64,000 nt of DNA from Liolophura sinensis. Lineage: Eukaryota; Mollusca; Polyplacophora; Chitonida; Chitonidae. This document shows, piece by piece, positions 233-62,577 of this stretch. The position numbers were made by a program, and so were the translations under genes. How positions within the stretch are numbered: the stretch's first letter is position 1; every line of letters starts with the position of its first letter. A model generated the notes under the pieces. That model had not been told where the DNA came from. It was given only the letters and a program-made list of their open reading frames with translations, and made no database searches. The stretch is taken from contig NC_088304.1 in assembly GCF_032854445.1 (NCBI RefSeq), positions 23,943,704-24,007,703 of the forward strand, given 5' to 3'.

Positions 233-3200
233 CTGTAAATACCAAAAATAAAATATCTCACATACTTGAAATGGCATTAATGGTACATTTTCACACAAAT
301 TAAAACCCCTAAATCAGTTTCCCCCAAAATGTCCAACACATCCCATTTACTGTTATTATAGTTTTGCACACAAAGGGGGATTAAATTAACTGACAAATGC
401 GGATAAATTCCGGTACAATATGACCAAAAGCAGTTACTTTGCGTGCAAAACAGCAGAAGCACCAACAAATGGCTCTACGCTTTTTGTACACAAAAAAATT
501 AAAGTCACTTTGTCATCGTTGAATAGAAAAATCCTGACACCACTTTGTACACTAAAAGGTCAAAATCACTTTGTATACAAAAAATTTGGGTTATTTTACT
601 ACCAAAAAGATTCAAGTTATTTGTACACAAAAAAGTTTGAAGTCATTTGTACACACACTGCTTGAAGTCACTTTGTACAAAAAGTTAGGGTCAAGACACC
701 TTGTTCTTGCTTTATTAGGTTGATGTCGACAGGAATACCTTTTCTCCGATCTCCGTCAAATCACCACCAGGTAATAGCTCGATGTCTGTATTCAAAGCAC
801 AGGCAGCTAGAATCCGTTTGTACCTAACAAGAGAGTAAACAGAATGAAGTTTGTCATATGTGTCCTCACAGCTGATCACAAGATTACTGAATTATTCATT
901 TGTCACAAACCAGAAGGTACGATAAGGTTTAACTAGATCACTGGCGAAAGTACACCTGAAAGGATTGGGCTTACTTTCAAGACTTAACGGCAAAAACCAC
1001 CTTAAAATAAAGTACGTATCAGATCAAAGACCATTAAAAACTGTCCAGAAAAATAGTTGGACTTTTATTGGAATTTTATTTTTATTGTGACCTTTTCTGA
1101 CCACAATGAGATCACTGACGTCACATAAGTTTTTTCGGTCCTTAACACACATTACACTGTCACATTTCATCATTCAAAATGCATATATATACAGATCTAT
1201 GAATGCATTCACTGATTTGACCTTGAGACAAAATAATTTCAGGCCAAAAGCATAGATGTTACATAATAGATACCTTCTGGGTCACAACAGACCACCGCAG
1301 AATCTGAGCTATTAACACAATTTTACCCGATTAGAAAAAAAACATAAATCCAACTATTTTCCTGGACAGTTTTTAATGGTCTTTCAAGTGATCTATACTT
1401 CATTTTAGAGTAATCTTTGCCATTTAATTTTGGAAGACGGATTAAACAGGTCTGAACAGCAATAGCCATTTCCCTCTCAACTTGGTATCAATCAGTTTCT
1501 AATTAGGCAATGAGCATTACTTATACCCCATGCCCATATGACTTATTAGGCAATGAGCATTCCTCATACCCCATGCCCATATGAGTTATTAGGCAATGAG
1601 CATCCCTCATACCCCAAGCCCATATGACTTATTAGGCAATGAGCATCACTCATACCCCATGCCCATATGACTTATTAGGCAATGAGCATCACTCATACCC
1701 CATGCCCATATGAGTTATTAGGCAATGAGCATTCCTCATACCCCATGCCCATATGAGTTATTAGGCAATGAGCATTCCTCATACCCCATGCCCATATGAG
1801 TTATTAGGCAATGAGCATCCCTCATACCCCATGCCCATATGAGTTATTAGGCAATGAGCATCACTCATACCCCATGCCCCTATGAGTTATTAGGCAATGA
1901 GCATTCCTCATACCCCATGCCCATATGAGTTATTAGGCAATGAGCATTCCTCATACCCCATGCCCATATGACTTATTAAGCAATGAGCATTCCTCATACC
2001 CCATGCCCATATGAGTTATTAGGCAATGAGCATTCCTCATACCCCATGCCCATATGACTTATTAAGCAATGAGCATTCCTCATACCCCATGCCCATATGA
2101 GTTATTAGGCAATGAGCATCACTCATACCCCATGCCCATATGACTTATTAAGCAATGAGCATTCCTCATACCCCATGCCCATATGAGTTATTAGGCAATG
2201 AGCATCCCTCATACCCCATGCCCCTATGAGTTATTAGGCAATGAGCATTCCTCATACCCCATGCCCATATGAGTTATTAGGCAATGAGCATCACTCATAC
2301 CCCATGCCCATATGACTTATTAAGCAATGAGCATTCCTCATACCCCATGCCCATATGACTTATTAGGCAATGAGCATTCCTCATACCCCATGCCCATATG
2401 ACTTATTAAGCAATGAGCATTCCTCATACCCCATGCCCATATGAGTTATTAGGCAATGAGCATTCCTCATACCCCATGCCCATATGAGTTATTAGGCAAT
2501 GAGCATCACTCATACCCCATGCCCATATGACTTATTAAGCAATGAGCATTCCTCATACCCCATGCCCATATGAGTTATTAGGCAATGAGCATCCCTCATA
2601 CCCCATGCCCCTATGAGTTATTACGCAATGAGCATTCCTCATACCCCATGCCCATATGAGTTATTAGGCAATGAGCATCCCTCATACCCCATGCCCCTAT
2701 GAGTTATTAGACAATGAGCATTCCTCATACCCCATGCCCATATGACTTATTAGGCAATGAGCATCCCTCATACCCCATGCCCATATGAGTTATTAGGCAA
2801 TGACCATCCCTCACACCCCATGCCCATATGAGTTATTAGGCAATGAGCATTCCTCATACCCCATGCCCATATGACTTATTAGGCAATGAGCATCACTCAT
2901 ACCCCATGCCCATATGACTTATTAGGCAATGAGCATCCCTCATAACCCATGCCCATATGACTTATTAGGCAAATGAGCATCACTCATACCCCATGCCCAT
3001 ATGACTTATTAGGCAATGAGCATCACTCATACCCCATGCTCATATGACTTATTAGGCAATGAGCATCACTCATACCCCATGCCCATATGAGTTATTAGGC
3101 AATGAGCATCCCTCATACCCCATGCCCATATGAGTTATTAGGCAATGACCATCCCTCATACCCCATGCCCATATGAGTTATTAGGCAATGACCATCCCTC

Positions 3201-6200
3201 ATACCCCATGCCCATATGGCTTATTAGGCAATGAGCATCCCTCATACCCCATGCCCATATGAGTTATTAGGCAATGAGCATCCCTCATACCCCATGCCCC
3301 TATGAGTTATTAGGCAATGAGCATCCCTCATACCCCATGCCCATATGACTTATTAGGCAATGACCATCCCTCATACCCCATGCCCATATGAGTTATTAGG
3401 CAATGAGCATCACTCATACCCCATGCCCATATGACTTATTAGGCAATGACCATCCCTCATACCCCATGCCCATATGAGTTATTAGGCAATGAGCATCACT
3501 CATACCCCATGCCCATATGACTTATTAGGCAATGAGCATCCCTCATACCCCATGCCCATATGACTTATTAGGCAATGAGCATTCCTCATACCCCATGCCC
3601 ATATGACTTCACTTAAGCAAACAGTGTTAGGGTGACATCAGCAGAAACATACAGCATACATTCAATATATATTATATCAAGCTAATCATGTCTTAGGGAT
3701 TGATCTCACATGACCAAGCAGTTAGCATGCTAGCGCAGTACAATGACCCAGGAGACTCACACCAATGCGATCACTGTGAGTTCAAGTCCAGCTTATGCTA
3801 GTTTCCTACGGATTGTGTGTTTCAGTCGAGCTCTGCCCAGTTCTTCCAACGATAACGGTGGCAAACATCGTATACATATAAGTGAAATATTCTTGAGTAT
3901 CACAAAAAAACTGTAATTAGATAAATAATAAATATGTCTTGGTCTGCACCATGTTTATTGCACCTATGTATGTACAGTACGGGTCCCTGAGGCCACTTCC
4001 ACTAAACTTGGTTAATCATATTTCTCAAAACATTTTGTGCAAAAGATGTCTGGCTTATTATACTGCCATAAGACGATGTCACTTACGAGAAAAACTACGA
4101 AAAACTGAGTTACAAAGTTTGTCAAAGTGGCCCCTGATGGCAGTCAACTTTATCTGTGCAGAAGGCCGGACTTAGAAAGGACATAATTCACCCAAAGCTG
4201 TGAAACTATTTCTAACATAAAACCAAAATCAGCTAAAGAGCTGCATAGTAGTAAACAAGAATTTTTTTTAAAATTTTTTTTTGGCATAGCACTTTAGACT
4301 GGTCATTAAAAACTTTGGGAAGACAACAAAAAAATACTCACTTTTTCCAGACAAATGGCTGACCACCAAGAATGTTGTTTCTCAGGGATGTATTCAAAAT
4401 CCAGGGTTTCTGAGCTACATACGCTATTTTGGTCCCTCTAAAACAAAAAAAAGAAAATGATTGATTGATTTATGTTGTTTGAATGATTACTAGAGAATTT
4501 TTCACTCACAGGGGCATATCTTGAAAAAAAAAGGCCCAAAAAACTAAGGTTCTAATCCCAAACTTTTAAAGGTGGCATCATGACTGTGCATCAATGAAAC
4601 TGTGTAAAAGGCTAAAGCCACATGATGATCCTCGACAGTTTTTAAGTTGGTGAATGAAAGAAATTTGTTGTAAAAACTGAACTTTTAATTCATAAACTAT
4701 TATATTTTGGCTAAATTATTTGTTAGTTTTAATACAACTTGATTAGTTTGGGAGCTCAAACTTTTTCTGGAACTAAAATGACTCTAGGTATGGCCCTGAC
4801 CTATGCCCTAATTAAACAATTCTTAAGTCGTAGCCTAGCAACTTATTATTTGTTTATTTATTTGAATGGTGTTTTATGCCGTATTCAAGAATATTTCATT
4901 TATACAATATCAGCCAGCAATATGGTATTATGAGAAACCCATGACCATTTGCAGGTTGCTGGCCTAGCAACTAGGAGGTGTAGCCAAACACCTGACCAGT
5001 GATCACCTACATGGGGAATGCTTGATGCATGCCAACCTGGGCCAAAAGCTCCCACATTGTTTGGTCGTTCTAGGTAGGTAAAGCTAAATTTACTGTCACT
5101 TTTCAACTTTTCTGCATGTTTGCAAGGTGTTTATTTCAAGTATATTCTGAAGGCATCATTCCGTGTGGACTGATAAAATTATACTTTCTGTGATACTCTG
5201 ATATTGGCCAAACCCAACCAATGTAGTTCTGTCTCCAACATCTGATTATCAATGTGTATAAATTGCACTGAAAGTTGTTCTCTCATAAGCAAAAAGATCA
5301 AGGAGTTAGGGTAACAGTTCCACATGCTGAAAGCTACATCGTTAACTATGGCGGTCTTGTTGGCATTTAACGACAGGTATAAAAAAAATTAATATTGTCA
5401 AAGCCAAGGTTTATTGGTTATTTAAAACGAGATATGTATAAATGGTATCACCATTCATAATCGGAATAAATAATGTACGAATTACCGGCACCATTCCAGT
5501 GTCCCTGATAGGGTGATCATCTCCCCGAGTAGAGCAGAGAGGAGGGAAGACTTCCCCGACCCAACCTGGCCGATCACAACCGTCAGCTTACCTGTAATTA
5601 TGGGGCAAGGTATCAGCTATGCGGGTGTAAGCATATGTAATGTAATGTAATGTAATGTACATGTATGAACATTAGTGGTTTTGGTGGAGTTTAATACCAA
5701 CTTGGCCTGGCCAACTTCAGATACATTTATCTATGCCGGAATACCATATTTCCCCTAAAATCAGCGTCACATATTTAGCTTGATTCTGAATGATTCATCC
5801 ACGTTAAGAAAGTACAATTAAAGATTTTTTTTTGTGAAGTTTGATTAATTTTGAAAGTCTGTATCAAAAGTATCATTTCAAAACCTCTGTGTGCTTCTGA
5901 GAGTGTATTTTTCGATACCAAAGTGAAATACGGTACAATTGTGTTATATGAAAAAAAAACAAAACAAAAAGAAACGTGATCTGAATGTACATGTAAATGA
6001 TTACATAACATATCTACATGTACATACTGAATTTCACCAAAAGTCTGACCGACAGAAATGCACTTTGGGGAGCACACAAAGGCTTTAAAATAACATTTCA
6101 TGCCAACCATAATCTTTTTGATAAGAAATTCACCAAATTTCAAAAAACAATACCAAAAAAAAAAAAACCCCCAAGGTGAGTGTATCATAGAAATCCTTTT

Positions 6201-9200
6201 TTAACGTATTAACAACTACTTTCCGGGCAAAATCGAGGCTTTTTTTTCTGTTTCGAAAGACCATTTCAGAGACTAAAAACAGAGACAAAATATTTTTGTA
6301 CTGATTAAAGTAATTATCACTGCCTATATATGAACTCAAGCTGGCCCCCTACGGCTAGTTGATACTGCAAAATGATAACCGACACACACTGCAGTCACTC
6401 TAGACTGTCACTCTAGACTGACAGAAACTCACAACATGAGCAATTTGTTTTGACATCACTTTTTGACAAATATTCAATAGTAATGAATCAAGACAGAATG
6501 GTCATGCATAACTAACTTATGGAATATGTGGTTGTCCCTCTCGGTCTGTAAAAGGAAATGATCTAAAGACCAAAAAAAAAACATCTGAAAAATTAAAAAT
6601 GATGCAACGCTTTACATGTATACTAGAAACTAATCTGAACAGTGCATCCAGATGAATGCTCTGTGCATTATCTAAATTCTCTTGAAATATTATACTTGCT
6701 TGTCCAAATAAAAGAAGACTTCAGTCAACACAAGTCCAATTTCAATTATTGACAGAGTACAAATCACACGAAATTTACCCCAAACATCAGCCACCGGTAA
6801 CGAGAAAATAAAGAGACCCACAATAGTGAATTATGGCATGGAGCAATCACTCTGTCACAAAGGCTACATATTTAGACGGATAAAATATTGTGCTACTTCA
6901 TGTATCAATGAATTGCCACTTTTTCCACGAAAAAGTCTTTGAAAAGCTCAGTCTTTGAATAAAAAACCTGATGTTATAGCGAATCGATTTCTTCGTGTGC
7001 TCACTTTTTACTTAGCGTGAAAACACAGTATATGTAAACTAATGACTCATGAATTTCAGTGAAAAACGGTGTATCTTTATACATCATGCAAGATTGCAAA
7101 TTGTACATGACAGACATGACTTTAATTGCCAGTGGCATTCAGTTTGCAAGTACACAACTCACCGACTGGAATTTTCACCGAGATATTTTTCAGAAAAGGC
7201 TGATCACTGTCAAACTCCCAGCAGAAGTTGCCTCCCTTGACTTCCACAGAGTTTCGTACCTCGACCAGAGACTCCCCTAGGCCTGTCTTGATGTCAGACA
7301 CATCCTCTGTGGATACCGAACTAGACACCATGACAGGCTGTTCAGTGTCGGAGTCAGGGTCAGAGGTCGTTCCTGCATGATACTCATTCTTATCCACAGA
7401 GGAGCTACTTGATTGGCCACTCTTACGGCCCGGGTCCAGGGGTACCAGTTGACTGGCGTTAAGGGAGTTTGAAGAGGGTTTTGGTCGCATATCTTTGTGT
7501 TTTCTTGCATCCAATCCCGTTATCATTCTCGGCGGTGCGCTGTGCTTTCGTATCTTCTTCATCGGTGCCTGAAGTTTTTCTGTTGATGAGTTTTGCTTCT
7601 GTCCATGGTTAAATCCCTCCGAGCTTTTTCTGGAGGCAGATGTCAGGAACTTTCCAGATCCAATTTGAAATCTTACGCTTAAGTCATGGCCAAACTGTGG
7701 TGAGAAGATACATTACACATTAGTTTTTATGTTCTTTTATTTGGTCAGAATTCTCTGCTCAATATTTCACTTGTACAATGACTGATATTTTATTTATTTA
7801 TTTGATTGGTGTTTTACGCCGTACCCAAGAATATTTCACTTATAAGACGGCGGCCAGCATTATGGTGGGAGGTAACTAAGCAGAGCCCGGGGGAAACCCA
7901 CGACCATCCGCGGGTTGCTGGCAGACCTTCCGGAGAGGAAGCCAGCCAATGACTGATAGATTCACAGATTAAATAAATCTCAGTATTTCAGCCATATCAG
8001 AGAAAGAAAATGATAGAACAGTAAATGTCACATAAGGAGACTACTGCAAGTATTTTATTTATTTATCTGCTTGGAGTTTTACACTGTACTCAAGAATATT
8101 TCTCCTATAAGATGGTGGCATTTTGGTGAAGAAAAAACCACCAGGACTTTAAATATCAAATAATTTTTGGGTGATGTGCATTTTGGATATATGGCAATTT
8201 CTTTTCACATGCACTAAACACACTTTGTTTAAAGTGCGACATCTGTTGTGTCATTTTATGACAAGAAACATCAAATGTTTAGCATTAACTTGTAAATGAA
8301 CATGTTTGAATAACCACAAGAAGATATCAATTGTCAAAATCCGAGGTCAAAACCTTCCAGCTCCACCAACTGACCTCCACTCGTTCCTCGCCCTCCTCCG
8401 CCGCCTGTATTGCCTCTGAGGTCATGTGATCATCATGAAGACTCAACCCCTCAACCTCAGGAGCCATTAGGAATGGGACAATTCGATTGGCACTGACACG
8501 GGCATTGACGATATTATGCAACACGAGGGTAAAGGTGAACAGCGGTAAAAGGAAAACGTTAAAGAGCGCGACAGTGGAGAAGACCCGCCCAGATGTCATA
8601 GGTTCCTCTTCCACTAGGGTGTAGACGGAGAAGGTCTATACAAACAAAGAGTCAGTGAAGGATCAGGTAGAAGTCAGGATTTTCTTCAATTGCACACATA
8701 CACGTATTCAAACAGACAGTTCTAATCGATCACAATTCAGAGGGTCATATTATTCAGCATATTATCAGCATAGTCCAGATACATTTTAACCCCTTAGAAT
8801 TCCATACATTTTAAGTGATTTTTCAGAAACCAGGAACAACTATTGTCACACTACAGGAAAACTACTGGCACACAACAGGTAAATAAATAGCAAACTACTG
8901 GCAAACTAATGGCACACAACAGGCACACTAGTGGCACACAACATGTGGACAAGTAGTAAGACACAGGCAAACTAATGGCACACCACAGGCTAACTATGAG
9001 AACACCATGTTCACATGTGTGACAAACCACAGGTAAACTAGACAAATTACAGTCTAACTAGGGGTACACTGCAGACAAAGTGGCATACAACAGGCAATCT
9101 AGTGTCACACTAGTGACATATTAGTGGACCACTAGAGGCAATCTACTGGCACACTACAGGCAAACTAGTGACACACTACAGGAAAACTAATTGCAGACTA

Positions 9201-12200
9201 CAGGAAAACTAGTGGCAAACTACAGGCAAACTAGTGGCAGACTACAGGCAAATTAGTGGCAGGCTACAGGAAAACTAGAGTCAAACTAGTGGCAGACTAC
9301 AGGCAAACTAGAGGCAAACTAGTGGCAGACCAAAGGAAAATGAGTGGCAGACTACAGGAAAACTAAAGCCAAACTAGTGGCACCCCAGAGAGAATTAGTG
9401 GCACATAACACAAAATCTAGTGACAGACCACAAGCAGACCACAAACAAACTAGTTGCATACTACACGTAAACTAGCAGTACACTAATGGCAAAATAGTGG
9501 CACACTAATGGCAAAATAATGGCACACTAATAGCAAAATAGTGGCAGACTATCGGTAAAATTTGTGGCACATTACCGGCAACCACACCCACCACACATTG
9601 TTCAGATATCTGGAGAACTTACACTCTAGCTAACACAATACACCCAGATTAAAGTTAGCATATTGTGCTACAAGACAATTTTTCTGGGAAATAACATTGA
9701 ATTATTACACCTTTCTTGCAGTGTAATCCACATTGCATGTTTACTATTAAACTTACAATTAGCATGCCTGCAACTGGGGTTCCTACAGTGATGAAATCTG
9801 AAAAAATAAAAGTTCAGATGTAAATGAATGTCACAAAAGAATGTTCTGCAAATATAGAGGCAGAGCCAAAAGGCGTGATCGGCTTGTTAGGATGCACCGC
9901 AGCATATGTGTGAGGAGAGGAACAGAATGTGAATGTAGCTGACAAAGAAATGACTGCACCATTTGAAACAAAACAAAACAAAATGTAAACACCATAAAAA
10001 AAAAACAACAAACAAACACAAAATTGGCCCAGAATGTTGCTGTGGCTATCTTAGGGAAAGTTGCTTTTTTTTCTGCTTCAAGTTTCATGTACACACATTG
10101 TGTTTCAGTAGTAGTACACCTTAATGTGATCTGAACAAGGCAATGAGTAAATTAAAGCATTTGTACTTTAATGCTAGTGTCCTTTGAAATATTTTTAGTC
10201 TGTTTGTTGTTTGTCTACAATGTCTCAAAACTATTTTTATGCTAAAACACCTTATTAACCTTTGATGGAGAAGAAAACACAAAAAAGGGGCAAATTTCAG
10301 AAGAAAGAGCAAATAAAGTTATTTATAAATATGGTCTTTAATATATTTTTAATACCTCTTGGTATATTATGTATGAATGAAAGAAACCTTTATTTAAAGA
10401 GGGTAGCTGTCTCAAATTAACAATCTGCTCTTCCCAGAGGCCCTCCATAACAACACACGAACACTGAACAAGTAAAAACGGTATATACTGATTACATTTT
10501 TAAAAACATAAAAACAGTCAATAAAACATCACATGTACATATCAGCTTATATAAGTTTACTGGTTGAAATAATTTTTCAAATAACGTGAAAACAGAAAAG
10601 CGATGGTGCTGTTTTAATTAGACACTACTGTAAAACTGTTTTTATAATAGTTCATGCAGTCATGAGTTATGATCATGAACGTGAAATTTGTTAACAGTTG
10701 ATAAGAAACTTGTTGTGTACTGTTGTGTTTTTAACAAGCAATTCTTCTTGATCTAGTGGTGACTTATCATGCAATGATTTAAAAATGAGACAAATCATAT
10801 CATATCTGATCATGAAGCGATCAGTAATTGGAATCCAATGTAACTCTAATAGAATTGGAGCTGTAGAAGTATGTATTTTACAACCTAAAATGATTTTAGT
10901 TGCACTTTTTCGAAGCTGAAATAATCTGTCAGAAAGTGACTGTAAAGTTCTCCACACTGAACTACTGTAATCGAAATGTGGCAAAATATAGCTATAAAAA
11001 GTTTTTCTCGTCTTGAAATCCAGATAAATCTTGTTCTGCCTTAAAATTCTAAGTGAGTGAGTGAGTGCTTGGGGTTTAACGTCTTACTAAAAAATTCCAA
11101 GAACTTTTGAAATTCTTTTGCATTTGACATCAATATGATCTTGCCATGTAAGTGTTTCATTTATAAAAACACCAAGCAATTTTGTTAGTGTTCTATTGAA
11201 GAGTCTTCAATTTTTAGGTTTAAGGCATTGTTTTTTACACTTCTGAGACACAGACGAGATCTTATCAACCTAGTTTTGGTTTTATCTGGATACATTCCAC
11301 ATTCATAAGGCCGCACAATAACAGCTTTTAAACTTTCGCTCAAAACTTTCTTAATTTCTGTAACAGTTTCAGCACTACAATGTATTTATTCATTTATCTG
11401 ATTGGTGTTTTACACCATACTCAAGAATATTTCATTTACACGACGGCGGCCAGCATTATCTGTGGGAGCAAACTGGGCTCTAGGGAAACCCACGACCCTC
11501 CTTAGGTTGCTGGCAAACCTTCCCACGTACAGACAGAGAGGAAGCCAGCATGAGCTGGAAGCACTACAATGGATAGTTGTGTCATTAGCAAACTTCTCAC
11601 CATGAGAAGTATTAATATATTGTGGATGGTCATTTATATATATGATAAAAAGCATTGGTATCAAAAATAAATAAATAATAATGTTATAAATAAGTATGTG
11701 ATACAAGAGTGAGATACATGTGTCTGATACAAGTATGTGATACAAGTATGTGATACAAGTGTGTGATACACTATACAAGTAATTGATCCACTGTGCAAGT
11801 ATGTGATACACCGTACAAATATGTGATACAACTATGTGATTTATTTTATTTATTTATTTGGTGTTTTACGCCGTACTCAAGAATATTTCACTTATACGGC
11901 AGCAACCAGCATAATGGTGGGAGAGGAAGCCAGCCTGAGCTTGAACTCGACCACATTGGCTCCTGGGTCATTACGCTGCACTAGCAGGCTAACCAACTAA
12001 GCCACAGAGGCCCCCGATACAAGTATGTGATACAAGTATGTGAGTCTTACCCATCAATCCTAGTAAGAGAGAATGCCTGAGGACAAACTTCATCTCTTCC
12101 TTTCTCATGGCTTCCACCCTCTTACAAAACAGCGTCTCCCAAGTGAAGAGTTTGAGTGCACGGATACCGTGGACCAGCTCCGTGGTCTTCTTCATTCGCT

Positions 12201-15200
12201 CATCTGAGTAGTGCTGCAAACAAAATCAATATTTATTTATTTATTTAACTGAATTCTAAAGCCATACACAAGAATATTTCGCTTATATGATGACTGCCAG
12301 CATTATGGTGGGAGTAAATCTTACGGAGCTCAGAGGAAACCATCATGAGCTGGACTTGAACTCGCAGAGACCGCACTGGTCGGAAGCTCCTGCGTCAATG
12401 TTCTGCACTAGCACACTGACAACTAGGCCAACTCGGATGTCCATCCCCAAACATTTCCAAAAATTAAGAAAGAAAACTAAGAAAACCTTAAAAAAATCAC
12501 AGGACATCACGTTGCTTAGTTTGGCTAATATAGACTGTTGCATGGGATATTCGTTGGGTTACATTGATGCATTGATTGAGTTGTTAACTTCGTCTGGGGG
12601 GTATAATAAAATATCCAGGGCCATATCTACAGTCATTTGATTTCCTGAAAACGTTTGGGATCCCTAACTATTGGTGCCCACATTAATCACGCTGTATTAA
12701 AATTAAAAGTAATTAGAATAAAAATATGATTTTTTTGCAATAAAAACAATTACATGTAGTTTTCATACAAATTTTATTCACTGACAAAAAGGCTCTCAAA
12801 AAGCACTGTAATCTGAGTTACAATTCACAAAATATCTTTATGTTCAGTTACTATGTCACCTGATGTTTGTGATCAGTTACTATGCCACCTGATGTTTGTG
12901 ATCAGTTACTATGTCACCTGATGTTTGTGATCAGTTACTATGTCACCTGATGTTTGTGATCAGTTACTGTCACCTGATGTTTGTGATCAGTTACTATGTC
13001 ACCTGATGTTTGTGATCAGTTACTATGTCACCTGATGTTTGTGATCAGTTACTATGCCACCTGATGTTTGTGATCAGTTACTATGCCACCTGATGTTTGT
13101 GATCAGTTACTATGCCACCTGATGTTTGTGATCAGTTACTATGCCACCTGATGTTTGTGATCAGTTACTATGCCACCTGATGTTTGTGATCAGTTACTAT
13201 GCCACCTGATGTTTGTGATCAGAACCTTCAATTTCTTTCTAGATAAGGCTCTGAGATCAATATGGGCTAAAATATGTCATAAAATATTTAAATATATATA
13301 TATATATATATAGATATATTACATAAAATATAATCATTTAGCTTTTGTCTGTGAGATATTACACAAACATGTATGTGGGAAGGTTTGTCGGCAACCTGCA
13401 GATGGTCGTGGGTTTCTCTTGGGCTCTCCTCGGTTTCCTCCCACCATAATGTTGGCCGCTGTCATATACGTGAAATATTCTTGACTTCAGTGTAAAACAC
13501 CAATCAAATAAATAAATAAATCTTACACAAATCACCAATAAAAAATTTTGCTCAAGTTTAGTGATTTTCCACACAGATAGGGTAGGAAAAATGTCAGCAT
13601 CCATCTATTTTTATTAGATGTACACAGTTATGCGTCCTACTTGAAAACACGTAAACTGGTGAGGATCATACTGATACATTCTATTAAAATAGTACGTCTT
13701 TATTTGGGAGGATTATCCCAAAATTGTAAAGAAAACTCCGCGGCTTGAATCTAAGAAAAAATTGAAAGCCAGTGAACATTTACCGCCATATAATAAGACT
13801 ATCCCGCTCTATGATTTTAGATTGCCATGGCATCCCTCATTTCCTTCTCACTTGTACCTTTCAAATGTTAATCTTTATCTACAGATATGTTAAAAACAAA
13901 TAAACACAAAAACTACACACAACAGAAAACCTCTCACCAGTATTTTTTTCTGGAGCTTTGACAGGGTTCTGGCGACCAAATACTGGAACGGGACGACAAG
14001 CACCACAACAGAAGCTCCAATAACAGCTGAGATTCCCAGTTTCATGTACATCAGCACAAAAGCTATTGTCATCTACAACATGGATAATACCTCATCTTGC
14101 AATATTTATTATTATTTATTTTTATCCCAATGCCTTTCAAGGATGTATTAAATGAAAAAGCCTCTAAAAATCAAAGTTATCATCACTCTAAAATAAACCA
14201 CTTAAAATTATGCATAAATATACGTTCATTTCTTTTTTCGATTTTTGCGAAGAGAGTTAAAGGTGCTCAGACATTTGAGATTTAAGGTGGGCTTTATGGA
14301 CCATACTATCAAAGGTTAGCTCTAACGTCATAGGAAGTTTATGCATCTCTAATCACGACACTGGATGTTGGAATAACTCTTTGTACCTATCAGTAAAAGA
14401 TTACAGAACTAACTATCCCATAAATTCCTTTCTTCTGGTGAACATCAGTGAGGTCAGAATTCTTAGATACCGTCAGTATGGCTCATAAAGCCCACCATAG
14501 TATTCAAATATCTGAATGCCTTTCAAAAAGGCATTTTTTTTAAAAAATCTGAAAAAATAAGTGAAAGTATTTTTAAGCATAGTTTTCAGTTGTCTGTATG
14601 AAGAGCCTTACTTCATATTTTACTTTAGGCCCTGGTCAGGATTCTGCGTGACAGATATCAGCTGGCTCAGAGTAACTCCCTGTGCCAAATGTGATGGATC
14701 AGGAAATGACCTGTACAAGAAATGCCCACATTCCTTACACAGTAACTGTTACCTGTGATGTACGACATTACCCGTATAGGAACAACCCACACATGAATGT
14801 AATGTATCAACATAATACCTGTCTACGGTCGTGATTATCCCATGGTTCTGTCTGGTTTCTTCCCACCGTAATACAGTGCCTGCCATCATGCAAGTGAAAT
14901 ATTCTTGAGAATGGTGTACAACACCAAGCAAAAAAACTAACAAATAAATCATCACATAACCTGTAGAGGAATTGACCATATATAATGTATCATGACATTA
15001 CCTGTACAGGAATTGATAATATCTAATGTGTCATGAGATTACCTGTACAGGAACTGACAATATATAATGGGTCATGACATTACCTGTACAGGAAGTGACC
15101 ATATATAATATATCATGACATTACCTGTACAGGAATTGACCATATATAATGTATCATGACATTACCTGGGCAGGAAGTGACCATATATAATGTATCATGA

Positions 15201-18200
15201 GATTACCTATACAGGAAGTGACCATGTATAATGAATCATGATATTACCTGTACAGGAATTGACCATATATAATGTGTCATCACATTACCTGTAGAGGAAT
15301 TGACCATATATAATGTATCGTGACATTACCCGTACAGGAATTGATAATATATAATGTATCATGAGATTACCTGTACAGGAACTGATAATATATAATTGGT
15401 CATGACATTACCTGTACAGGAATTGACCATATATAATATATCATGACATTACCTGTACAGGAAGTGACCATATATAATGCGTTATGAGATTACCTGTACA
15501 GGAACTGACAATATATAATGGGTCATGAGATTACCTGTACAGGAATTGACCATATATAATATATCATGACATTACCTGTACATGAATTGACCATATGTAA
15601 TGCATCATGAGATTACCTGTAGAGGAATTGACCATATATAATGTATCATGAGATTACCTGCACAGGAAGTGACCATATATAATGTATCATGAGATTACCT
15701 GTACAAAAAATGACCATATATAATGAATCATGAGATTACCTGTACAGGAAGTGACCATATGTAATGCATCATGGCATTACCTGTACAGAAATTGACCATA
15801 TGCAATCCATCATGAGATTACCTGTACAGGAAATGACCATATATAATGTATCATGAGATTACCTGTACAGGACTTGATCATATATAATGTATCATGAGAT
15901 TACCCGTACAGGAACAGCCCATATGTAATGCATCATGACATAACCTGTACAGGAATTGACCATATATAATGTATCATGAGATTACCTCTACAGGAAGTGA
16001 CCATGTACAATGTATCATGAGATTACCTGTACAGGAAGAGATCATGTATAATGTATCATGAGATTACCTGTACAGGAAGTGACCATGTATAATGTATCAT
16101 GAGATTACCTGTACAGGAAATGACCATATATAATGAATCATGAGATTACCTGTACAGGAAGTGACCATGTATAATGTATCATGACATTACCTGTACAGGA
16201 AATGACCATATGTAATGAATCATGAGATTACCTCTACAGGAAATGACCATATATAATGAATCATGAGATTACCTGTACAGGAAGTGATCGTGTATAATGT
16301 ATCATGAGATTACCTGTACAGGAAGTGATCGTGTATAATGTATCATGAGATTACCTGTACAGGAAGTGACCATGTATAATGAATCATGAGATTACCTGTA
16401 CAGGAAATGAAAATATATAATGAATCATGAGATTACCTGTACAGGAAATGACCATATATAATGAATCATGAGATTACCTGTACAGGAAATGACCATATAT
16501 AATGAATCATGAGAGTACCTGTACAGGAAGTGACCATGTATAATGTATCATGAGATTACCTGCATACCAACTGTCCATATGCAATGTACAATGTATACCA
16601 TGTATTTACCTGTACAGGAACAGCCCATATATAATGCATCATGAAGAAGAGATTATGTAGGAAGTAGGCGTCTGTGGACATGTAGTTGAGAATCTGGCCT
16701 GTGGAAAGCTTGTCGGACGATAACATCAGAGTGGATAAACGCAGGGCCTTCTCGTACACCATACCCTGCAAAGACGACATAAATTATTGTAGCAAATGCT
16801 GTGGTAAGAAACTGACAGTATATGTATTTTAATGTAATAAAGTTCTCTGACATGTTGTTGTTGTTAGCTGCTGAATCCTTAGAACTCTTAAGGAAACGAA
16901 GGCAAGAAAAGTTATTAATTGCACTGTTAACCAGAATCGCTATCTGCCAACGTGCAAGGCTGTACTCCTTGCATGTTTGGTGAGGGAGGTAGCTTATCCA
17001 AAGCACAATGACCAATGAGAGGCCTACAACCTTCTCTGCGTTGTGGTAAGTAGCTGTGTACAAAAATCCACCATGTGAAAGGTAACTACAGTGATTGAAA
17101 AAGACCACCATTGGTAGAACCTACTGAAATAGTTTTTGAATTTCCTTTTTCCTTTCATTATTTTTATTTGGACATGTTATGTGGGCTTTTAGCACATTAG
17201 TGCATGCTAGTATATCTCGAAATTGTAAATTTACAACATAACTAACCCGGCACTTTCACTTGCAGTTCGCAGCAGAATGACCACAAGTTATTGCACATGA
17301 TGCAAAAAAAAAAATTTCTGTACTTATATATTATAATATATGATGTTAGGACAACCGCTTGCCTCTAAAAATGCATTTTATGGGGCAAGATTAGAGTCAT
17401 TTTCCAAGTTGACTGTAGCATTGATTAATTTATAGAGTTTCTACCTGTACAGAATTCCTCAGCCTAATGGCCTCTCTGATCACAAGAAAATGGTGATTTT
17501 GAAGGAATGTCTTCTGCAGCAAACAGGTGAAAAAGAGGGTCGCGGACAGTACGTAGCCATTGCTGAAGAAACTGTCCACGTGGACATACCTGTCAACCTG
17601 AAACAAAACAATATGTGAGTGATTAATGAACTTATGTCAGGTATCTTCATCATCATGGTTTTAGGTCTTGCTGACTTAACTGGCGACATTGGCATGTATG
17701 TAGCTGCAACTCTGAAACAAGACAATCATCGAATGATCGATTGATTTATGTCTGATAATACAGTCATTGCTCAGAAAACTGTCCACATGCACATAGCTGT
17801 CTGGAAAAAAAAAACAACACAAAAAATGTTTCAATGACTGAATTATTCCTGATAAAACTGACACAAGACAATTTTGATTAGACAAGATTGATTTATATCA
17901 TTGTAGCACATAGGCATGGGTGACGAAGGGTTCATATAGGCATACATGTACCTGCCATTCTGGACCAAAGGTCATGATTGATTTACGTGAGAAAATTTCT
18001 ACAACTTTTCATCCATGAAATTTCTCCTCAAAAAAGTTCTCCTCTAAAAAGCGATTTCTATGACTCCCTGAGAACACAGCCTTACTGTAGCGTTGTGGGT
18101 GACATTATCCAGCACCGTCCTGTCCCTGGTCACATAGGCATAATCCACAATAGCCTCAATAAACCATGGTCCCACAAAGCCCAGCAGGTCCCCCAGCAGT

Positions 18201-23298: not shown

Positions 23299-26200
23299 GT
23301 AAAACTCTAAGTACAGGTGTTTATGTTGTGGAACTTTGGGGCTGTGGCAACGCTGGTAACAAATTGGACAGTGTCCAATTATCGTTATGTTGGTTTGAGA
23401 CAAATTACACATCCTAGTAACCTGTTTAGGTTTTTGGAGACGCAGATATCAGTATTTTTACTTTGCCGGTGTGATGTGGTAACATATGTTTTTAGAATAT
23501 GTATGTTTGTAAATGCCCCATGACAGCATGAAAATAGTCCCGAAAAGCTCCAACTCTTTTCCTTATATTGGCCTATCGTCGTTGGATTCTCGATGCTAAC
23601 AATATCAATTTCGTACTAAACGAAGGTCCAGGCAGATTCTCTTTGCTGTCAAACAAGTGTTGTGCAAATGAAAGAAACCAACCTAAACACCGGCTTTCCG
23701 CTCCCACCGCACCGCCACCATATGTCTCTACTCGCTTTAGAATAGATTTATTATAGCTATGAAGACTTCCACAGTACATGCTTCTTGGCGGTGGCCACCA
23801 TGTTGGGCAGCTACATGTAGGCCCACGCGCATGTTCTGCTTCATAGTGGAACAGTAAGAAGATGGTTGCCACGGCTGAAGCTTTCATGGTAATAATTAAT
23901 CTATTCTAAAGCAAGTATTTATTTATTTATTTGATTGGTGTTTTACGCCGTACTCAAGAATATTTCACTTATACCGCTACGGCCAGCATTATGGTTGTTG
24001 GAACCGAGCAGAGCCCGGGGGAAACCCACGACCATCCGCAGGTTGCTTACAGATCTTCCCACGTACAGTCTAAAGCGAGTAGGGGCATATGGTGATCTTG
24101 TGGTGATGTGGAAAGCAGACCTTTAGGTTGGTGTCTTTTATTTGCATGAGGCTTGCCCGATAACAAAGAACAAGAGAATTGGCCTGGACCTTTATTGAGT
24201 ACGAAATATATACTGTCAGTGTTAAGACTCCAACGACGCTTGGCCAATATATGAAAAGGAGTCTTTCGGGGCTACTCTACATGTTGAAAAGTGAAAGTAA
24301 AAGTAATCTTCTCTAGCAATCCGTTAGATACATTGACTAGTACTTAGTGAAATATTTGGATACGACAGATATTTCCTCACTCACAATAGCTCAGTCTCTT
24401 AAAAATTAAAGGGTAGTGTCATAGCCTGGGTTTTAGTCTGTAGCTTCTACATGATTCTTAACACAGAATGAGAAGACTTAAAAAATCATTGTATACCAAA
24501 CATTAAAATTGTGTGGATGAGTTTGAGTTGAAAAGGTTCAAGGAAACATTCTGCATGGCGTTGAATGATAGAGCTTCACGTATTACGGAAACTTCAGCTA
24601 ACCTTTGAGCTGTAAGAAGACAAACTTTTTTTTTCTTGTAAGATTGATATTTCTGTCATGTTTTGGACAAAAAGACTATGTTGAAGTGACTGGCTAGAAA
24701 TAACTAACTGATCCTCAGGGTAACAATATCACAGGACTGTATTGACAAAAAAAGCCAGTTAAGTTAACCCCAAGATGTAATTGGTTATATACTTTTTATT
24801 ATTATACCTCACAGAGTCATCCTTGGTTTCCAGTGGTCAGCACACAATTTCATGTTATTCCAGAAAACATGTGTAATGATAATGATCCCAAGCAAAGAAA
24901 TGTCACACTCACAAAGTAATACCCTATCCTCACGAGGCAACAGCCAACAGTCTCCTCCAGTAATAGTTAAAGAATTCTTAATAAATGTTGAGGGTTGTGT
25001 CTTAAAAAGTACTGCATGTATATATGGGAAAAAAAATAGTAGCAATACAAGTGAAGTGTTGCGTTGTTGCTGTCCTACCTGCATATTTATTACTTATATT
25101 GTTGATTGGGGGCCCTCCTTGGCTCAGTTGGTTAGCGTGCTAGCGCAGTGTAATGGCTCATGCTGGCTTCCTCTTCCTCTACGTGGAAAGGTCTGCCAGC
25201 AACCTCCTGATGGTCATGGAGGTGCATGCCCGGCTCTGCCCGGTTTCCTCCCACCATAATGCTGGCCGCTGTCGTAAAAATGAAATATTCCTGAGTATGG
25301 CATAAAACACCAATCAGATAAATAAATAAATATATTGTTAATTGGAATCAATGTCAAAGGAGAAGAAAACTTAAAAACATGTCACTATATGCTGAAAAGA
25401 GCACATTTTTTCATATCTGGTGGTGCCCTCTGTATAATTTTGTGATTTTTCCTTGCCATACACGTAAAGCCTGAACACGGCAAAGCTGGCATAAATCGCT
25501 GAGTCCATTTGGTCCTTCATCTTTAACACCCTGTAATTTATGTTGAGGGTGTGTTGCCTCTCAGCCAATGAGAGTCTTTAAGACTGCCGGCTTGCTCTTG
25601 TTAACTCGGAACCTACATCCAACATTCCAGTATCCCGATTGCCAAGTGGAAAACAAACTGTACTGTTCGCTACCGTCTGGGAAGAAGAGTTCTACCAGAA
25701 ATGTATGAACTGCACTTCGGCGGTTCCCGACGGCGATTCTTCTCCTAACACAGAAAACTTCAGGACTAGTTCTGAGGCAAAATGGAGTCGCCCACAGCGG
25801 ATGTTGGCACAGACTTTATTTATAATTTATCATCTTTGAGATACATATTAGAATTTATTTTATGGCATGCACCTGCAAGGAAATGCATACTGTTTTCAGT
25901 GGTACATGTATTTGATTGATATTTAAATTTTCTTCTCCTTTAAGGTATGTGTACTTCAGATCTTTCATCGTACATGGGAAAAATTTGTTCATTGCTTGTT
26001 TGATAACCACAACGTGTATGCATGTATCTTATAGTTTTAGTACATTTTATCCAGAAAAAAGCCTGGCAGATGGCATAATTGAGGTTGGCAGTAGCTTATG
26101 GAATGTAACATTAAGGATTTTTGTCCTAGGCCTTGTAACTTAAGCATTACAATCTGGGGTTATCGCAGGGTTTGACCATAAAAGCGAAAGGAGCCTCTCA

Positions 26201-49608: not shown

Positions 49609-49866
49609 GGGGCCTCCGAGGCTCCATTGGTTAGCGCACTAGCGCAGGGTAATGACCCAGAAGCCTCTCACCAATGCTGTCGCTGTTCAAGTCCAGCTCA
49701 TGCTGGCTTCCTCTCCGCCGTAAGTGGAAAGGTCTGTCAGCAACCTGCGGATGGTCGTGGGTTTCCCCCGGTCTCTGCCCGGTGTCCTCCCACCATAATG
49801 CTGGCCGCCGTCGTATCAGTGAAATATTCTTGAGTACGGCGTAAAACACCGATCAAATAAATACAT
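49609..49866 (+). mobile_element. Family A SINE, best full-length copy
   Basis: Head GGGGCCTCCGAGGCTCCATT GGTTAGCGCACTAGCGCAG (A box), B box GCTGTTCAAGTCCAGC, middle GAAAGGTCTGTCAGCAACCT, GGTCGTGGGTTTCCCCCGG, CCATAATGCTGGCCGCCGTC, and tail CAAATAAATACA. About 258 bp. The tRNA-like head is the internal pol III promoter of a SINE, not a functional tRNA. Confidence 0.95.
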
Positions 49867-62386: not shown

Positions 62387-62428
62387 TGTGAATGAAGACT
62401 CTTTAGAATAGTTCACGGCTAAGTAAAG

Positions 62429-62577
62429 CCTTATAACATCATGATAAACATAGCCTTATAACATCATGATAAACATAGCCTTATAACATCATGATAAACA
62501 TAGCCTTATAACATCATGATAAACATAGCCTTATAACATCATGATAAACATAGCCTTATAACATCATGATAAACATT
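62429..62577. repeat. 25-bp perfect tandem repeat, 6 copies
   Basis: CCTTATAACATCATGATAAA CATAG repeated six times without visible change. Confidence 0.97.

Follow-up and report, generated by a model that had tools for sequence, protein, structure and literature searches.

A minisatellite resembling a coding exon end and its splice donor in the next intron of a SUR-like gene of Liolophura sinensis

Analysis of a 64,000-nucleotide window of the Liolophura sinensis genome (contig NC_088304.1) showed that a coding exon of a putative SUR-like gene is followed directly by a minisatellite of one irregular 50-bp copy and 39 regular 41-bp copies, in which the last 35 nt of the exon plus GTAA recur. 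The sequence comparisons supported the derivation of these copies from the end of exon 6 and its donor. The look-alike splice sites could cause mis-splicing, or they could be skipped harmlessly.

By sequence comparison, the gene is SUR-like (ABCC8/ABCC9-like) and lies on the minus strand, being closest to SUR, a regulator of potassium channels, over the TMD0-like frame and the TMD1 exons. The TMD0-like frame gave SUR in 10 of 10 matches to solved ABCC proteins, and with joined exons 4–7 SUR took the top 11 of 43 matches; the joined exons also matched the Pfam family ABC_membrane. Exon 6 alone had no Pfam match and was nearest to ABCC4. Exon 6 (numbered as in the preliminary description; 16765–16610, minus strand) was an open segment of 156 nt in phase 0 that matched ABCC proteins, with the acceptor GCAG|G and the donor CAG|GTAAAT; its end encodes WAVPVQ, where SUR1 has WAMPVQ. 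The donor had been given as 16610, which is in fact the last exon base, the first base of the intron being 16609. The intron between exon 6 and exon 7 (14073–16609, minus strand) was 2,537 nt long and in phase 0, with copies occupying about 65% of it, and exon 7 (13938–14072, minus strand) was 135 nt long. Only two A(A/T)TAAA words were found in this intron, both close to the acceptor, and U1 shielding of intronic polyadenylation was considered for it. A search of 13800–17000 against Rfam at gathering thresholds gave no match.

Tandem Repeats Finder reported a 41-bp unit in 39.4 copies at 14948–16562, with 88% matches. The first copy begins at the exon 6 donor and runs from this true donor (16609) to the first decoy donor (16559), occupying 50 bp at 16560–16609 of the minus strand. 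After site 16559, the Tandem Repeats Finder result and the unit table placed 39 units of 41 bp at 14955–16559 (minus strand), with donors running from 16518 to 14960 in a fixed 41-bp register. The earlier count of about 40 units of 41 bp stood for these 39 but not for the irregular first copy (16609–16560). The regular array stopped near 14955 and was followed by a dispersed-repeat fragment (about 14827–14950, minus strand), which blastn also placed at 17 sites elsewhere in the window with 74–84% identity, except for one 21-nt match at 95%. ARAGORN found no tRNA over the window, so a tRNA-derived origin of this repeat has no support here. Beyond the fragment lay degenerate copies (14700–14826, minus strand) that resembled the array units; 14771 and 14710 were donor-like sites, and a further GT stood at 14752.

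Alignment with the end of exon 6 (16610–16644, minus strand) showed that the copy consensus matched 31 of 35 exon positions, or 35 of 39 when GTAA was included. The 39 regular copies had a mean identity of 84.8% with the last 35 nt of the exon (range 27–33 of 35). Mononucleotide-shuffled exon ends matched the consensus at 9.4 ± 2.6 of 35 positions, with a maximum of 22 in 100,000 shuffles, and the best ungapped match to the unit elsewhere in the window, on both strands with the array and exon end excluded, was likewise 22 of 35. These values bear out the preliminary proposal that the tandem units are copies of the exon end. The word TTCCTGTACAGGTAA, with up to 3 mismatches, occurred 72 times against 2.4 expected, a count that takes in plus-strand matches because CCTGTACAGG is a palindrome. 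Ten tandem-array consensuses, hand-picked from 38 Tandem Repeats Finder rows, were compared with the window; that of the exon 6 array aligned with the neighbouring exon end over 35 nt (88.6%, E 1.5e-5), while none of the other nine matched the rest of the window below E 0.01. Searching viral and prokaryote collections for exact 21-mers gave 0 matches, a result with little bearing on animal DNA.

The relationships among the copies also suggest descent from the exon. Copy 15903 had the exon base at all four positions where consensus and exon differ, and in the tree it paired with copy 14771 (85), separate from the other copies (90); these two exon-like copies point to such an origin. Adjacent copies were more similar to each other than in permuted orders (14/2000), as local copying would predict, and similarity was also found at spacing 8 (15/2000), but not at spacings 2, 3, and 11 (943, 85, and 429 of 2000 permuted orders). 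By eye, likeness to the exon did not rise or fall steadily along the array. At positions +5 and +6, the copies had T in 39/39 and then C (25/39), G (13/39), or A (1/39), bases that differ both from the intron (AT) and from the exon bases next to it. A TAATC word begins 46 nt from the exon end, TAATC being present in 1.3% of the 15-mers of the strand. As a guess at the founder junction, this word would fit TAA microhomology with a 6-nt deletion.

GT was present at the donor place in all 39 regular copies, and exact CAG|GTAAT in 31 of them. With human splice-site matrices and a human U1 end, the true donor scored 4.82 (within the top 0.4% of GT sites) and 31 of 40 copies scored 3.28 or 3.36 (within the top 1.3%). 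The U1 pairing value of the true donor was −8.8; many copies lay between −8.3 and −8.8, and one reached −9.6. The genuine exon 5 donor had a matrix score of only 0.64, and with the overlapping U1 pairing values this makes the donor matrix a poor ranker of sites. As predicted anatomy, the array of near-consensus decoy donors put forward in the preliminary description is sound.

That description treated the copies as donors only, which was right for the donor half and overlooked the acceptor-like half. The unit carries CTGTACAG|GTAAT, so each copy combines a decoy 5′ splice site with an acceptor-like site. AG|GT was found in 38 of 40 copies (37 of the 39 regular ones), and the median acceptor-like score of the copies was 4.95, close to the 4.94 of the exon 4 acceptor; this median was reached by 1.0% of background AGs, and the lowest copy score was −1.07. 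Since nearly all copies have AG|GT, and in most the acceptor-like half is good, any one of them might function in either role. A join between exon 6 and a copy's AG rebuilt CAG|GTAATC, GTAATG, GTAATA, GTACTC, or GTTATG. At the sequence level, the copies have the acceptor joined directly to the donor that marks a recursive site, and recursive (zero-length-exon) splicing, in which the mRNA stays normal, could be a third outcome.

Frame analysis showed that all 42 later donors modelled gave the same truncated protein end, in agreement with the earlier expectation of truncation. The first stop for transcripts reading on from exon 6 was an in-frame TAA at 16556–16558 (minus strand); this codon (16558–16556) sits inside the first decoy donor, 17 codons past exon 6. 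The TGA that had been described after each copy is therefore not the operative stop when a later donor alone is used, and becomes so when the acceptor of a copy is used first. Early stops also ended 780 of 780 modelled cryptic exons; with these and a unit of 41 nt, the array does not consist of in-frame coding units that could be kept or removed. The sole modelled misuse without an early stop was the joining of exon 6 to a copy AG, which rebuilt the donor tracelessly.

Evidence for selection keeping the decoys was weak. In column permutation tests against other columns, donor-core conservation gave p = 0.08 for −3 to +5 and p = 0.41 for −3 to +6, and AG|GT gave p = 0.09; the three G|GT columns, which were invariant, gave p = 0.034. 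Of the 41 contiguous blocks, the core from −3 to +5 (8 columns) varied least. RNA structure was also considered as a possible mask for the donors. Three units folded better than shuffles (z −3.6), the median predicted accessibility of the copies, set against 2,256 background GTs, ranked at the 30th percentile and that of the true donor at the 54th, and when the following intron was shuffled, accessibility fell below the real value in 13 of 60 cases; the fold and accessibility results were judged too weak, and masking was rejected.

Donor-bearing minisatellites at exon borders are already known, and the array described here is a variant made from a coding exon end; the literature search found no donor minisatellite derived from an exon in this way, which leaves absence from print unproven. 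For the human ABCA7 intron 18 VNTR, use, polymorphism, and a disease link are established, and splicing at the next donor brings in one 25-bp unit, with a frameshift and a stop (PMC5954066). In that ABC-transporter gene too, the array comes right after an exon, its first GT is the true donor, and every unit has a donor. However, the ABCA7 unit, as described there, starts at the donor and is intronic, whereas here 35 of 41 bp copy a coding exon end, AG precedes GT in the units, and use of the copies is a prediction from sequence. The minisatellite units of IFI6 (6-16, G1P3) are cited as acting as splice donors (Turri et al. 1995, cited in PMC4526556), a use that is only predicted for the present sites. 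In UBC, AG|GT occurs at an equal place in each tandem unit and its dual use is reported as established (PMC10809524); the same dual use is predicted here, but the UBC units are described as 228 nt long, coding, and in frame, while those of the exon 6 array are 41 nt long, intronic, and mostly lead to stops. Tandem duplication of an exonic AGGT segment is described as supplying splice sites in intron gain, with fission yeast genes having several copies of a 24-bp segment cited as a case (PMC4974935). The exon 6 array shares the duplication of exonic AGGT sequence with that model, but its duplication crosses an exon-intron border that was already present and makes the intron larger, and a new intron is not evident.

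The explanation we prefer, with confidence just short of even, is that of an exon-end minisatellite in which the true donor is mostly chosen and the copies are used at a low level as tolerated noise. A tandem duplication that took in the 3′ end of the coding exon together with roughly 4 bases from the start of the donor would have founded the minisatellite, and unequal exchange or slippage would have expanded it to about 40 copies within the intron. With its higher score and an ordinary coding exon at its side, the true donor would be chosen mostly, and the array would be removed as intron. At a low level, a copy may function as a donor or as an acceptor: cryptic exons or use as a donor would bring an early stop, followed by decay or a short protein, and recursive use would rebuild the donor at the exon 6 junction and yield normal mRNA. 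The array would then be tolerated noise, and more copies may lower gene output. Exon likeness, frames, and site scores were computed; the course of the duplication, the use of copies, decay, and any effect of their number are inferred. As a counterpoint, costly misuse might erode the AG|GT core, yet this core falls in the least varying 8-column block.

It is rather unlikely that the exon-derived array is an inert passenger, with the true donor and exon definition winning fully while the copies drift and are homogenised. Donor-core conservation not clearly above that of other columns (p 0.08, 0.41), the matrix lead of the true donor, and its ordinary accessibility would suit such a passenger; U1 pairing of many copies equal to that of the true donor does not, nor does the reported use of like arrays in ABCA7 and IFI6. 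A ladder of recursive sites made from the coding exon's own end seems improbable. Here, the copies would act as zero-length exons and the intron would leave stepwise with a normal mRNA, occasional donor-first use giving stop-containing isoforms. AG|GT in 38/40 copies, an acceptor-like median that falls within the top 1.0% of AGs, and the rebuilding of CAG|GTAAT, or of one among four similar forms, on joining exon 6 to a copy are consistent with it. Since the join restores this site at one point, removal of the intron in many steps would leave no trace in the mRNA. However, recursive splicing is known best from long introns, and this one is short (2,537 nt). In UBC, dual use of AG|GT is described as keeping or removing units, with no zero-length steps (PMC10809524). 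Still less probable is regulated tuning, the idea of the preliminary description, in which copy number or a splicing factor would set the share of stop transcripts and hence the protein level. All modelled donor-first misuse led to a stop, the least varying contiguous block was the −3 to +5 core, and VNTR length is reported to affect ABCA7 splicing (PMC5954066), but the other selection tests were weak, and Duan et al. found the UBC array to be under neither feedback nor tissue regulation (PMC10809524). A reverse or separate origin, in which the repeat was there before or arose at another genomic place, and overwrote the exon end or resembles it for some other reason, is very unlikely: the unit search covered this window alone, which leaves some room for it, but SUR1 shares residues that the exon end encodes, and no comparable unit match occurred elsewhere in the window.

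The array would be a clean natural example of a minisatellite seeded by the end of a coding exon instead of by intronic sequence alone, setting about 40 closely similar sites in competition, and, as far as the sequence suggests, a parallel outside humans to the ABCA7 VNTR. If the gene is expressed, the array would show how the spliceosome picks among dozens of like sites, and would inform on recursive action of AG|GT copies and on the tolerance of genes for such arrays. If the recursive ladder were true, copy number would set the splicing kinetics or the output of a gene for a putative potassium-channel subunit, and recursive sites could in general be built by copying an exon-donor border in tandem.

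Exon 6 of the host gene (16765-16610, minus strand) consisted of 156 nt encoding 52 residues and ended in CAG|GTAAAT. The preliminary description had placed about 40 tandem 41-bp units directly downstream of this exon, and this layout was recovered: the array (14948-16562) contained 39.4 copies with 88% matches, with 39 regular copies in a fixed register (donor G from 16518 to 14960) and a single irregular copy of 50 bp separating the true donor from site 16559, giving 40 copies in total. The array consensus, TCATGATACATTATATATGGTCACTTCCTGTACAG|GTAATC, was identical to the last 35 nt of exon 6 at 31 of 35 positions, and the regular copies at 27 to 33. Shuffled exon ends reached a maximum of 22/35 against the consensus (100,000 shuffles), and the best ungapped match in the window outside the array and exon end was 22/35; the units were thus diverged copies of the exon end, as had been proposed. 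When 10 tandem-array consensuses, hand-picked among 38 repeat rows, were each compared with the rest of the window, the consensus of this array matched the adjoining exon end (E 1.5e-5). For the other nine, nothing below E 0.01 came up in that comparison, exons elsewhere in the window being unannotated.

Exons 4 (18292-18086), 5 (17597-17445) and 7 (14072-13938), all on the minus strand and numbered as in the preliminary description, were joined with exon 6; each length was a multiple of 3 and the translation was stop-free. The joined protein matched ABC_membrane (PF00664, E 1.6e-15), its top 11 of 43 PDB matches were SUR1/SUR2 chains (best E 2.3e-38), and all 10 matches of the upstream open frame 22492-21887 were SUR chains (best E 2.9e-36). 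By these matches the host gene is SUR-like, which narrows the earlier ABCC assignment; exon 6 alone, however, was nearest to ABCC4 (E 8.5e-7, versus 1.3e-4 for SUR1), which counts against it. The character of the gene and of its introns suggests an animal source. The exon 5 end also read TTCTGTACAG|GTAG (17442-17455, minus strand), and the CTGTACAG|GTA common to the ends of exons 5 and 6 was probably a coincidence of V-Q codons.

Since the copied end encodes a stretch aligning with SUR1 (WAVPVQ versus WAMPVQ), the exon 6 end is, on sequence grounds, the natural source of the repeat unit. Copy 15903 (copies are named by donor G position) shared 33/35 bases with the exon and had the exon base at all four positions where consensus and exon differed (-28, -15, -13 and -12); the degenerate copy 14771, outside the array edge, had it at three of them (GGGTTGTTCC versus GGGCTGTTCC). 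In the exon-rooted tree of a 49-column alignment, with uncertain gaps in copies 14771 and 16559, copies 15903 and 14771 paired (85) and the remaining copies formed a clade (90); this grouping was suggestive only. Adjacent copies were more alike than in permuted orders (14/2000), as were copies 8 units apart (15/2000), and copies 2, 3 and 11 units apart were not (943, 85 and 429 of 2000).

Between the regular and degenerate copies lay a dispersed-repeat fragment (about 14950-14827), which matched 17 other places in the window on both strands (for example, 11380-11473, 49753-49861, 7789-7905 and 25232-25335) at 74-84% identity, except for one 21-nt match at 95%. Because of this divergence, the insertion, and hence the distal array edge, may be old. 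The repeat looked like a short interspersed element, although ARAGORN found no tRNA.

Other repeats in the window included a 43-bp array at 1502-3606 (48.9 copies, 94% matches), with nothing alike below E 0.01 in the rest of the window, and a 29-bp array at 12837-13222 (13.4 copies, 97% matches). The latter lies in the gap from exon 7 to the exon-like stretch that follows it near 12214, and nothing in the rest of the window matched it. A 25-bp unit repeated 6.0 times at 62427-62576 (100% matches) was probably very recent. The diverged 11/22-bp array family at 8838-9571 (67-84% matches by row) had none alike in the rest of the window. A 130-aa open frame at 10694-11083 (minus strand) read like a retrotransposon reverse transcriptase end.

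GT was present in 39/39 regular copies and AGGT in 37/39. Columns -3 to +5 were the least variable of 41 contiguous 8-column blocks; random column choice gave p 0.08, and 0.41 once +6 was included, and selection on the donor core is not claimed. The palindrome CCTGTACAGG, found in 26/39 regular copies and at the true donor, is predicted to permit copy-copy and copy-true donor pairing (three-copy folding z -3.6); the predicted accessibility of the true donor was ordinary (54th percentile).

Donors were scored with human frequencies against 3,827 background minus-strand GTs; caution is needed, as the real exon 5 donor scored just 0.64. The true donor scored 4.82 (reached by 0.37% of background GTs), 31/40 copies scored 3.28 or 3.36 (1.3% and 1.2%), and three (two GTTATG, one GTACTC) scored below 0. 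The predicted U1 pairing energy was -8.8 kcal/mol at the true donor and lay between -8.3 and -8.8 in most copies; some copies paired more weakly (to -6.1), and a single one reached -9.6. Scored as acceptors, the copies (all 40) had a median of 4.95 (reached by 1.0% of 3,517 background AGs), a mean of 4.11 and a range of -1.07 to 7.02; the acceptors of exons 4-7 scored 4.94, 7.05, 6.00 and 1.76. With donor and acceptor-like scores and AGGT in 38/40, the copies can therefore be regarded as candidates for the dual-specific class of splice site described in PMC10809524.

Reading on past exon 6 met TAA at 16558-16556, 17 codons beyond the exon. In the model, each of the 42 later donors (the 40 copies plus distal sites 14771 and 14752) led to this same truncated end, in agreement with the earlier claim that later-donor use should truncate the protein. 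All 780 modelled cryptic exons, from a copy AG to a later copy donor, also stopped early, after 2 (8 cases), 3 (763) or 14 (9) added residues. Such stop-containing RNAs would be expected to decay. Joining exon 6 to a copy AG with nothing kept rebuilt a donor (CAG plus GTAATC, GTAATG, GTAATA, GTACTC or GTTATG). As modelled, array misuse would be either cut short or invisible, a point absent from the preliminary description.

The ABCA7 intron-18 VNTR (PMC5954066) has a nearly identical arrangement: the first GT of its 25-bp units is the exon 18 donor, and splicing at the next donor inserts 25 nt with a frameshift. An older example, cited in PMC4526556, is the IFI6 minisatellite. UBC (PMC10809524) parallels the dual-site part of the exon 6 array, and the model in which introns are gained by tandem AGGT duplication (PMC4974935) parallels the duplication part. 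Unlike in these known systems, the unit of the exon 6 array is mostly coding exon end, so that each copy carries its own acceptor-like half.
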